DNA from: Euzebyales bacterium
GTDB lineage: Bacteria; Actinomycetota; Nitriliruptoria; Euzebyales; JAHELV01
DNA: 64,000 bases
Direction of reading: 5' to 3'
NCBI GenBank assembly: GCA_036374135.1
Contig: DASUUK010000066.1
Coordinates: 1-64,000 of the forward strand
The position numbers and the translations under genes are program-made. Under the pieces are notes generated by a model, which had not been told where the DNA came from, ran no database searches, and saw only the letters and a program-made list of their open reading frames with translations. Positions 43,609-59,903 of this stretch are shown here, piece after piece; the stretch's first letter is position 1, and each line of letters opens with the position of its first letter.

Positions 43609-45273
<1,665 letters not shown>

Positions 45274-55688: not shown

Positions 55689-56279
55689 TCAGATCGCCGT
55701 GACCGGCATGAACGACGGTCGACGCGCCTCGAACGTGGCGATCTGCTGTTCGCGCCGCAACGTCAGCGCGATGGGATCCAGACCCTCGACGAGCAGCCGC
55801 TTGGTATGCGCGTCGACCTCGAAGTGATCGGTGCCCAGTCCGGTCACGACGACCTGCTCCGGCAGGTCGATGCGGACCGTGGCCGCCGGCTCGTCGGTCG
55901 CGAGCGCGATCAGCTCCCTGCAGCGGTCCACGGGCAGCGCGACGGTCAGCAGACCGATCTGGTCACAGTTGCTGCGGAAGATGTCGGCGAACGAGGGAGC
56001 GATGACCGCGTCGAAGCCGTACTGCTGCAGCCCCCACGGTGCGTGCTCCCGTGACGAGCCCGAACCGAAGTTCGGCCCGGTGACGAGCACGTTCGCCCCG
56101 GCGTACCGCTCGTCGTTGAGCACGAAGTCGGGGTCGCGGCGCCAGTCGTGGAACACGAACTCGCCGAAGCCCGTCCGCTCGATCCGCTTGAGGAACTGCT
56201 TGGGCATGATCTGGTCGGTGTCGACGTCGGCCCGGTCGAGCGGGAGCATCGTCCCGGTGATCGTGGTGACCGGTTGCAT
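55689..56279 (-). CDS. leuD: 3-isopropylmalate dehydratase small subunit
   Basis: Partner of LeuC in leucine synthesis. The 196-residue protein has DTDQIMPKQFLKRIERTGFG, the GPNFGSGSSREHAPWGL swivel-domain motif and IFRSNCDQIGLL. Its ATG overlaps the leuC stop as ATGA. Confidence 0.96.
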   Translation of the reverse strand: MQPVTTITGTMLPLDRADVDTDQIMPKQFLKRIERTGFGEFVFHDWRRDPDFVLNDERYAGANVLVTGPNFGSGSSREHAPWGLQQYGFDAVIAPSFADIFRSNCDQIGLLTVALPVDRCRELIALATDEPAATVRIDLPEQVVVTGLGTDHFEVDAHTKRLLVEGLDPIALTLRREQQIATFEARRPSFMPVTAI

Positions 56280-57736
56280 CAGGCGGCTCCGTTCATGTGA
56301 TGGCGGTCCCCGCCCCGGCCGCTGTCGCCCAACTCGCGGACGTCGACGAAGTGGCCGTGGATGGCGGCGGCGGCGGCCATCGCCGGCGACACCAGGTGGG
56401 TCCGCCCGCCGCGGCCCTGCCGGCCTTCGAAGTTGCGGTTGGAGGTCGACGCGCACCGTTCACCGGGTGCCAGGATGTCGGGGTTCATGCCCAGGCACAT
56501 CGAGCAGCCGGGCTCGCGCCACTCGAACCCGGCCTCGGTGAAGATGTCGGCCAGCCCTTCGGCCTCGGCCTGCAGCTTCACCGGGTACGACCCCGGAACG
56601 ACCATCGCGCGGACGCCACCGGCGACCTTCTGTCCGTCGACGACCCGGGCCGCCGCACGCAGGTCCTCGATGCGTGCGTTCGTGCACGACCCCAGGAACA
56701 CGCGGTCCGGCTGGATGTCGGTGATCGCCTCCCCACCGCGCAGGCCCATGTAGTCCAGCGCACGCCGGGTCTGATCCGCGTCGGCCGTCTCCTCGGGGGT
56801 GGGGACGTGGCCGTCGACCGTGACGCTCATCGCCGGTGTCGTGCCCCACGTGACCGTGGGCGCGATCGTCGTCGCGTCGAAGTGCTCGACCCGGTCGAAC
56901 GTCGCATCGGGATCGGTCGGCAGGGACCGCCAGTGCTCCAGAGCGGCGTCCCAGTCATCGCCCCGGGGCGCGTGCGGCCGGCCCTTCAGGTACACGAACG
57001 TGGTCTCGTCGGGTGCGACGAGACCCGCACGAGCGCCCCCCTCGATCGACATGTTGCAGATGGTCATCCGGCCTTCCATCGACAGGCCGGCGATCGTGCT
57101 GCCCCGGTACTCGATGACGTGGCCGACCCCGCCGTCGACGCCGATGCGGCCGATGATCGACAGGATCACGTCCTTGGCCGTGACGCCGAACGGCAGCTCA
57201 CCATCGACCTCGACCGCCATCTGCCTGGGCCGTGCCTGCATGAGCGTCTGGGTCGCCAGCACGTGCTCGACCTCACTGGTGCCGATGCCGAACGCCAACG
57301 CACCGAACGCCCCGTGGGTTGCCGTGTGGCTGTCACCGCACACGATCGTCATGCCAGGTTGGGTGACCCCGAGCTCGGGCCCGATCATGTGCACGATGCC
57401 CTGCCGCCGGGAGTGCAGATCGAACAGACGGATCCCGAACTCGTCACAGTTGCGCCGCAGTGCCTCGATCTGCGCGGCGGACAGCTCGTCGGCGACGGGC
57501 TGGGAACGGTCGGTCGTGGGGACGTTGTGGTCCATCGTCGCCAGCGTCAGCTCCGGGCGCCGCACGGGGCGGTCGGCCAGCCGCAGGCCCTCGAAGGCCT
57601 GCGGGCTGGTGACCTCGTGGACGAGGTGGAGGTCGACGTAGAGCAGCGCCGGACCGTCGTCGTCGGCGACGACGTGGGCGTCGACGATCTTGTCGACCAG
57701 CGTCCTCGGGGTGTCCGGCATCGCCGCGCCCGTCAC
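56279..57736 (-). CDS. leuC: 3-isopropylmalate dehydratase large subunit
   Basis: 4Fe-4S isomerase of leucine synthesis. The 485-residue product has [26 protein letters not shown], the first cluster Cys in [11 protein letters not shown], and the other two in [11 protein letters not shown]. The GTG start at 57736 overlaps the stop of a 47-codon ORF as GTGA, and an ATG five codons later is an alternative. leuA lies upstream on the same strand. Confidence 0.97.
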
Positions 57737-57987: not shown

Positions 57988-59544
57988 CTAGGGCGTGTCG
58001 GTCACGGTCCGCGCACGGTGGCGCAGGCGTACCGACTTGTTCATGGCCGACAGGAACGCGCGTGCACTGGCCTCGACGATGTCCGTGGACACGCCGCGGC
58101 CACTGATGCGCCTGCCGTCGACCTCGACCTGCACGGTCACGTCACCGAGGGCGTCGATCCCCCCGGTGACAGCGGCGACGTTGAAGGTGACCAACTTCGC
58201 CTCGATCCCAACTGCGCGGCGGATCGCGCCGCAGGCAGCATCGACCATGCCGTCTCCCATCGCCGACTCGTCGATCGTGACGTCGTCGGCGGTCCTGCGG
58301 ACACGGACCGTGGCGGTTGGTGCCGTCGCGGTGCCGCCGGAGACCTGCAGGGACTCCAGTACGAACCCATCGTCTGCGCTGGCTGACACCTCGTCGGCGA
58401 CGATCGCCTCGAGGTCGACGTCGGTCAGCTCGACCTTGCGGTCGGCCAGCTCCTTGAAGCGGGTGAACGCGCGCGCCAGCTCGCCGTCGTCCAGCTCGTA
58501 GCCGAGTTCGGCGAGCTGGGTGGCGAACGCGTGGCGGCCCGAGTGCTTGCCCAGGACGATCTGGGCGCCGGTCAGGCCGATGTCCTCCGCGCGCATGATC
58601 TCGTACGTCAGGCGGTCCTGCAGCACCCCGTGCTGGTGGATGCCCGACTCGTGCGCGAACGCGTTGCGACCGACGACGGCCTTGTTGAACTGCACGGGGT
58701 AGCCGGTCAGCGCGGTGACCAGCCGGGAGGTGCGCGCGATCTCCCGCGTCACGACCTGCGTCGACCGGTCGAGCAGGTCGGAGCGGGTCGCCAGTGCCAT
58801 GACGACCTCCTCCATCGAGCAGTTGCCCGCGCGCTCGCCGATGCCGTTGACGGCGACCTCGATCTGCCGCGCACCGTTGCGCACGGCCTCGATCGAGTTC
58901 GCCACGGCCAGACCCAGATCGTTGTGGCAGTGCACGCTGACCATGACGTCGTCGCCCACCCGGCGGACGATCTCGGCGATCAGCACACCGAAGTCGTGCG
59001 GCAGGGCGTAGCCGACCGTGTCGGGGATGTTCACGGTCGTCGCGCCGTTCGCCACGGCCGTGTCGACGACCCTTCTCAGGAAGTCGTGGTCGGTGCGCGT
59101 CGCGTCCTGCGGTGAGAACTCGACGTCGTCGGTGTAGCTGCGTGCGTGCCGGACGGACTCGGCGGTCGACGCGAGGATGTCGTCCTCCGAGGCTCGCAGC
59201 ATCGCGCGTCGATGGATCTCCGACGTGGACAGGAAGACGTGGATGCGGGAGCGGGCCGCGCCCTTGAGCGCGGCGGCCGCGCGGTCGATGTCGCCGCGCG
59301 CGCACCGCGCCAGCGCGCCGATGACCGGCGCGTCCGGTTCGGTACCCACGTCCTCGGCGATCGCCTTGACCGCGTCGAAGTCGCCATGCGACGTGATCGG
59401 GAACCCGGCCTCGATCGTGTCGACGTGCAGGCGGCACAGCTGTTCGGCGATCTCGAGCTTCTCCTTGACGCCCAACGAGATGCCGGGCGCCTGTTCACCG
59501 TCGCGCAGGGTCGTGTCGAAGATCTGTACGGCGTTGGGGGCCAT
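57988..59544 (-). CDS. leuA: 2-isopropylmalate synthase
   Basis: Committed step of leucine synthesis. The 518-residue protein has FDTTLRDGEQAPGISL, VHCHNDLGLAVANS, NGIGERAGNCS and a C-terminal regulatory domain (about 380-518) with the leucine-binding fold. It is the long LeuA type, not the CimA type. GAGGAG seven bases before the ATG at 59544 sets the start. Its 250-base leader holds a leucine-rich ORF, a hairpin and a tandem repeat. Confidence 0.96.
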   Translation of the reverse strand: MAPNAVQIFDTTLRDGEQAPGISLGVKEKLEIAEQLCRLHVDTIEAGFPITSHGDFDAVKAIAEDVGTEPDAPVIGALARCARGDIDRAAAALKGAARSRIHVFLSTSEIHRRAMLRASEDDILASTAESVRHARSYTDDVEFSPQDATRTDHDFLRRVVDTAVANGATTVNIPDTVGYALPHDFGVLIAEIVRRVGDDVMVSVHCHNDLGLAVANSIEAVRNGARQIEVAVNGIGERAGNCSMEEVVMALATRSDLLDRSTQVVTREIARTSRLVTALTGYPVQFNKAVVGRNAFAHESGIHQHGVLQDRLTYEIMRAEDIGLTGAQIVLGKHSGRHAFATQLAELGYELDDGELARAFTRFKELADRKVELTDVDLEAIVADEVSASADDGFVLESLQVSGGTATAPTATVRVRRTADDVTIDESAMGDGMVDAACGAIRRAVGIEAKLVTFNVAAVTGGIDALGDVTVQVEVDGRRISGRGVSTDIVEASARAFLSAMNKSVRLRHRARTVTDTP

Positions 59545-59563
59545 GGGGGGTCTCCTCATTCAT

Positions 59564-59633
59564 GTGTGCCTACCGCTTCGCTACATGAGGCACGTGACGT
59601 GTGCCTACCGCTTCGCTACATGAGGCACGTGAC
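59564..59633. repeat. Two copies of a 35-bp unit in the leuA leader
   Basis: The unit gtgtgcctaccgcttcgcta plus catgaggcacgtgac is repeated exactly with a 35-base period. Each copy contains GTGCCT...AGGCAC, a 6-bp stem with a 16-base loop on the minus strand, and an ATGTAG start-stop. It lies 20 bases upstream of the leuA ATG. Confidence 0.9.
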
Positions 59634-59667
59634 GTGTGCGGCGGGTATGAGACCCGGACGTTGCACT

Positions 59668-59700
59668 CCGCGGGGGGTTGGGTGAGGGTCCGCCCCGCGG
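59668..59700 (-). promoter_or_regulatory. Hairpin directly after the leuA leader ORF
   Basis: CCGCGGGG and CCCCGCGG form an 8-bp stem (59668-59675 and 59693-59700) with a 17-base loop. It begins two bases past the leader stop codon, in the position expected of an attenuator or pause hairpin. Confidence 0.6.
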
Positions 59701-59702
59701 CG

Positions 59703-59795
59703 TCAAAGAATGAGGAGGCCGAGAAGGCCCGCGAGCAGCAGCTCGAAGATCGCGCCGGACGGGCGCGCTACGAGGTCGAGCTGGGAGATCTGCAC
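59703..59795 (-). CDS. Candidate leucine-rich leader peptide of leuA (30 residues)
   Basis: GTG 59795 to TGA 59703. The peptide ends FELLLAGLLGLLIL, so 10 of 30 residues are leucine, eight of them in the last 12 codons, with CTG, CTC and CTT mixed. The GTG lies eight bases after the -10 box of a good promoter, so the mRNA appears leaderless or nearly so. Ribosome stalling when leucine is scarce would change folding of the hairpins downstream. This fits a leu attenuator. Confidence 0.75.
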   Translation of the reverse strand: MQISQLDLVARPSGAIFELLLAGLLGLLIL

Positions 59796-59803
59796 GGCCA
59801 CTA

Positions 59804-59832
59804 CTACTACGCCGTCACGACGCCGGTGTCAA
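59804..59832 (-). promoter_or_regulatory. leuA promoter
   Basis: TTGACA (59832-59827), 17 bases, then TAGTAG (59809-59804). The -35 box is perfect and the spacer is ideal. It is the strongest promoter seen in the window. Transcription would begin about at the leader GTG, 250 bases before leuA. Confidence 0.7.
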
Positions 59833-59903
59833 CTCACCGCGACGAACGGCCCGGGATCCGACCGCACGTGGCGCTCGGCCACCAGGTGACGCACGATGTG
59901 CGC

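Follow-up and report, generated by a model that had tools for sequence, protein, structure and literature searches.

How is leuA controlled where it is preceded by a leucine-rich open reading frame (ORF) and a hairpin, with no obvious terminator? The window, by which we mean the whole 64,000-nucleotide stretch of DNA that was analysed, comes from a Nitriliruptoria MAG (4.0 Mb, 115 contigs), and all features given below lie on its minus strand. The leuA gene (57988–59544) encodes a 2-isopropylmalate synthase of the bacterial type (TIGR00973) and is followed by leuC (56279–57736). Its start at 59544 lies 158 nt past the stop codon of an ORF at 59703–59795, which begins with GTG, comprises 30 codons (VQISQLDLVARPSGAIFELLLAGLLGLLIL) and ends with TGA at 59705–59703. 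Leu accounts for eight of its 12 final codons. A preliminary description of the locus had reported this ORF, its terminal Leu codons and its position eight bases past a promoter, and each was found as described. The window has 703 ORFs with 15 or more codons, and of these the leader ORF is the only one with five or more Leu codons in the last 12, the runner-up having four. This uniqueness makes it scarcely credible that we are dealing with a chance Leu-rich ORF without a regulatory role, a reading that is refuted by the class-wide conservation of the leader.

LeuA searches of the class yielded 37 leuA upstream regions that were complete enough for comparison. In all 37, the leader has a Leu-rich C-terminus, a TGA or TAG stop codon one base before GCCGC, and a hairpin, P1. 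The preliminary description had staked its reading on relatives sharing a leader ORF with leucine codons, as every one of these leaders does. The single leuA in the class set that lacks the element (L076, in genome G004) has a low-GC upstream region, and this genome is possibly misassigned. A covariance model built from the Nitriliruptoria elements alone (R1) matched 51 of 66 class genomes, many of the remaining genomes being incomplete.

The promoter ahead of the leader spans 59804–59832, with TTGACA at 59832–59827, a 17-nt spacer and TAGTAG at 59809–59804; 8 nt separate TAGTAG from the leader GTG at 59795. It had been called perfect, which holds for the –35 element, whereas the –10 element agrees with TATAAT at only three of six positions. 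A consensus promoter scan did not report the leader promoter. The arrangement TTGACA-17-TAGTAG-8-GTG is unchanged across four species of the genus, and related genera carry TTGACR-17/18-TAnAAN-type promoters 6–10 nt ahead of the leader start. In each of the 36 Nitriliruptoria leaders that were scored, the start codon lies 6–10 nt past the best –10 element. From this conserved spacing, we infer a transcription start at 59797–59795. Because such a distance is what a leaderless ORF needs, the leader ORF is probably leaderless, and the leaderless Leu leader peptide proposed earlier for this position upstream of leuA appears probable. An alternative GTG at 59801 was rejected as the leader start, as it lies only 2 nt after the –10 element and is missing in L010.

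The Nitriliruptoria leaders are 27–37 codons long. Hairpins occur at an equivalent position within the ORF in most of them, just upstream of the Leu run (mean z –1.6); the one in the window lies at 59739–59783, with outer arms 59783–59776 and 59746–59739 and a nested GCGCGCC/GGCGCG stem. Between L009 and L010, a T-A to C-G change keeps the outer stem paired. The C-terminal 12–14 residues are hydrophobic in all leaders, as might be expected if the product were a functional small peptide, acting at the membrane or by arrest, and not a sensor of Leu-tRNA. We consider this highly improbable, since the N-terminal parts differ between families, the Leu codons are unusual and the DNA of the Leu run is tied to the leuA Shine-Dalgarno (SD) sequence.

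This tie is seen in the complementarity between the Leu-codon run GGCCTCCTCATTC (59708–59720), the 5΄ strand of a base stem and thus an anti-SD strand, and the leuA SD region GAATGAGGAGACC (59549–59561), its 3΄ strand: 12 of 13 bases are complementary when 59720–59708 is set against 59561–59549. Each of the four congeneric leaders has this stem in its minimum-energy fold, whether the 35-bp repeat described below is included or left out. The stem likewise belongs to the minimum-energy fold of 34 out of 37 class leaders, compared with approximately one-third of dinucleotide shuffles. A caveat is that CTC and CTT codons pair with any purine-rich SD sequence. We determined the best contiguous stem for each combination of Leu run and SD sequence, and compared own with swapped pairs. 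In the 37 leaders, own pairs were stronger than swapped pairs (P < 5e-5 to P = 0.0035, depending on window size; mean stem energies of –14.9 and –12.9 kcal/mol, respectively, for one window pair), and the same was found within each structural subtype (P = 0.008–0.014), although these P-values are to be taken as guides, since relatedness inflates the test and the windows were varied. RNAduplex on long windows was noisy (P = 0.008) and was set aside in favor of contiguous-stem scoring. The covariation analysis of related leaders that had been suggested at the outset accordingly found co-variation of the Leu run and the SD sequence within Nitriliruptoria leuA. Among 24 distant elements, preceding Actinomycetia-type leuA and leuC, stems of 6–9 bp between the Leu run and the SD sequence are common, and own pairs were not better than swapped ones (P = 0.29–0.36); the evidence for base-stem co-variation is therefore confined to the leuA leaders of Nitriliruptoria.

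The choice of Leu codons in the leaders is also unusual. Over their final 12 positions, the leaders together contain 250 Leu codons, namely 117 CTC, 74 CTG, 58 CTT and 1 TTG, and CTT is the last sense codon in 35 of 37 leaders. CTT thus makes up 23% of leader Leu codons, compared with none of the 37 in the window leuA (27 CTG, 8 CTC and 2 TTG) and two among the 191 Leu codons of five pooled window genes. CTC and CTT are both decoded by a single tRNA, tRNA-Leu(GAG). These two codons suit pairing with a purine-rich SD sequence and decoding by a single tRNA alike, and the codon data weigh equally for both.

P1 (59668–59700) is a perfect 8-bp stem that begins two bases past the leader stop codon, as the preliminary description had noted; CCGCGGGG at 59700–59693 pairs with CCCCGCGG at 59675–59668, leaving a loop at 59692–59676. 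In an alignment of 32 leaders, its lower part (CCGC/GCGG) never varies; at one other pair, two sequences belonging to different subtypes have A-U in place of G-C. The upper part is GGGG/CCCC in subtype A, to which the window genome belongs, and GCGCCGTC/GACGGC in subtype B. A candidate pseudoknot (59650–59691) would join GGACCC in the P1 loop (59691–59686) to GGGTCT at 59655–59650; in the window it consists of 6 bp and competes with a local CGGGT/ACCCG hairpin. In subtype A, the P1 loop pairs with a segment 6–14 nt past the hairpin, and the two change in register (GCACTC/GGGTGC, CGCACC/GGTGCG, GCATCCAC/GTGGATGC and TGACCGCACCC/GGGTGCGGTCA); own pairs surpassed swapped ones in 18 leaders (P = 0.004). 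In subtype B, CCCC pairs with GGGG, and the same comparison was weak (P = 0.09).

A Leu leader peptide with a hairpin directly past its stop codon is also what classical transcription attenuation would require, in which the position of the ribosome on the Leu codons decides on termination before leuA, possibly by Rho; the coupling of translation and transcription makes effects of Rho plausible. However, none of the Nitriliruptoria leaders has a U-tract after P1, and a terminator scan of the window leader returned as its sole candidate a weak 5-bp stem within the Leu run, so that the earlier remark on the lack of an obvious U-tract terminator was borne out. In addition, the conserved feature is the pairing with the SD sequence. 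Two distant members of the phylum do have leaders in which a T-rich tail follows a GC hairpin, as judged by eye (L091 and L092, each a Leu leader before a TIGR00970 leuA); attenuation in that other lineage perhaps relies on a terminator. Taken together, we regard classical attenuation as unlikely for the window leuA. Because the Leu codons pair with the leuA SD sequence, regulation of translation initiation is a better fit than an attenuator that lacks its terminator. Of the ribosome-mediated leu attenuator first proposed, the Leu-codon leader thus stands, and the framing around a missing terminator gives way to one in which the key partner is the leuA SD sequence.

The sequence between the candidate pseudoknot and the SD region contains two tandem copies of a 35-bp repeat (59564–59633), which are exact, self-complementary and self-folding. 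The preliminary description had placed a structured 35-bp repeat ahead of the leuA ribosome-binding site as part of the regulator; the position is correct, but the regulatory role was rejected. The window genome has related copies at 19 places and each of three sister species has them at 16–30, and none was found at the leuA leaders of these three species. The repeat is often tandem, at loci including L002–L008 and L115–L118 in four congeneric genomes. As it is dispersed in the genus and has no copy at the sister leuA genes, we conclude that the switch does not include it. The other leader helices are predicted to be the same with or without it, and it looks like an insert that landed between the pseudoknot and the SD sequence and left the element unbroken.

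We consider it most likely, with a probability of roughly 0.6, that the region is a LEU element, that is, a leucine-responsive leader controlling the initiation of leuA translation. Transcription would begin at or beside the GTG of the leaderless 30-codon ORF, whose terminal Leu codons would double as the strand able to pair with the leuA SD sequence, and P1 and the pseudoknot, just past the stop codon, would close the intervening loop. With ample charged tRNA-Leu, the leader would be translated to its end, ribosomes would leave, the Leu run would pair with the SD sequence and leuA expression would be low. With little charged tRNA-Leu, a ribosome stalled at the Leu codons would cover the anti-SD strand together with the 5΄ arm of P1 a few nucleotides further on, the SD sequence would be free and leuA would be made. 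Effects on transcription linked to Rho, following lowered translation, are possible.

The mechanism of the LEU element is a question that has stood since 1999–2005. According to the original description (Seliverstov 2005, PMC1262725), codon mutants of the Streptomyces coelicolor leuA leader had effects at odds with classical attenuation, and for this reason its discoverers favored a protein ligand and doubted that the leader is translated; ML1624 is a published candidate regulator. A protein-binding leader, in which the Leu codons would be incidental, could account for the P1 stem being invariant in sequence as well as in pairing, and the non-classical behavior of the codon mutants agrees with it. 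It needs neither the frame nor the Leu codons nor a start next to the –10 element, all of which are kept in every leader, and we judge it distinctly unlikely. In contrast, the class-wide leaderless frame, the rare Leu codons and the co-variation of the Leu run with the SD sequence argue for occlusion of the anti-SD strand by the ribosome. Under such occlusion, the codons are also the anti-SD strand, so that codon mutants would alter the sensor and the lock together and their results would be hard to read. A codon mutation would also break the stem, which could account for the odd mutant phenotypes.

The genes under the element provide natural comparisons for testing the occlusion model, as they include leuC and two families of leuA. 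The Actinomycetia leuA genes under R1-matched elements are of the leuA_yeast type (TIGR00970), whereas the window leuA is of the leuA_bact type (TIGR00973), and the two are non-orthologous. One genome (G260) has a LEU-like element directly upstream of leuC (L148) and another before its leuA; in six further Nitriliruptoria cases (L125, L139, L166, L167, L170 and L174), a LEU-like element lies ahead of leuC with intervening sequence or an intervening frame. The parts of the 2005 description that were consulted make no mention of leuC as a target. In genomes G036 and G042, a Nitriliruptoria-type element precedes the leuC operon (L125 and L139, respectively), and a separate contig carries a TIGR00970-type leuA whose own element is weaker (L160 and L162); here leuA has apparently been replaced and the leader retained. 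Further Nitriliruptoria combine a TIGR00970-type leuA with an Actinomycetia-style element, two according to a family search (L145 and L146) and three according to a reading of translations (L168, L169 and L171). The LEU element thus seems to persist through a swap of the enzyme under its control. We tentatively propose, at somewhat less than even odds, that it is a module that outlives its gene, across two non-orthologous leuA types and leuC and including one Nitriliruptoria genus with the leader at the leuC operon and a TIGR00970-type leuA at another place, in which the ribosome directly covers the anti-SD strand and the sensing codons are themselves the sequestering strand. The window also contains a second isopropylmalate-synthase-like ORF (44281–45228), a 591-aa open frame with a weak TIGR00970 match, at which the R1 search found no LEU element. 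Short Leu-containing leaders before bacterial-type leuA occur in other actinobacterial lineages (L101, L104, L105, L107, L109, L113 and L143), some with different hairpins.

Finally, we compared the leader with known systems. Rfam covariance models, including T-box and other riboswitches, gave no match with E-values up to 5 at 59500–59900. The enteric leu leader, too, encodes a peptide with Leu codons ahead of leu genes; it differs from the present leader, which has no U-tract terminator, a probably leaderless start and pairing with the SD sequence. Membership among the classical enteric-type attenuators was rejected, as a Rho-independent terminator is lacking. The mycobacterial polycysteine attenuators (Canestrari et al. 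2020), as portrayed in a citing description, resemble the leader in their leaderless short ORF, run of codons for the sensed residue and biosynthetic operon; they differ in sensing Cys. A pattern scan of named genomes also matched Ensifer, Shewanella and other phyla.

Within the Actinobacteria, the leuA leader peptide of Corynebacterium glutamicum contains four consecutive Leu codons (PMC4046766). Streptomyces lividans leuA has a leaderless leader peptide, LeuL1, without a Rho-independent terminator (PMC8079986), and in both respects the present leader is similar; LeuL1 differs in that it is 15 residues long, has a central Leu run and continues after this run with coding sequence over the hairpin. 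Leaderless, terminator-less leuA leaders are already published, and so is a stem between the Leu run and the SD sequence. The LEU element, as set out in its description (PMC1262725), comprises a Leu leader before actinobacterial leuA, a base stem between Leu codons and the SD sequence and a pseudoknot, with no terminator. The present leader shares its position directly upstream of leuA, the Leu-codon run, the base stem and the absence of a terminator. Its candidate pseudoknot would lie between the base-stem strands, as that of the LEU element does. R1 also matched Actinomycetia leuA leaders of Propioniferax and Nocardioides (E-value of approximately 2e-6) and those of three Actinomycetia-like genomes (L088, L089 and L090; E-values of 4.5e-5 to 8e-3). 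Three other matches in the phylum (L142, L144 and L147) were weak, lay inside coding sequence and were discarded as likely due to chance. Compared with the Actinomycetia elements, those of Nitriliruptoria have a longer leader (27–37 codons compared with approximately 7–17 in the Actinomycetia leaders that were inspected), a Leu run at the extreme C-terminus, a stop codon abutting the hairpin and a hairpin within the leader, and they govern TIGR00973 rather than TIGR00970 leuA; the dispersed-repeat insert, in two copies, is confined to the window species. The leuA leader is best classified as a member of the actinobacterial LEU element, here extended to Nitriliruptoria, and hence as a known kind of switch.
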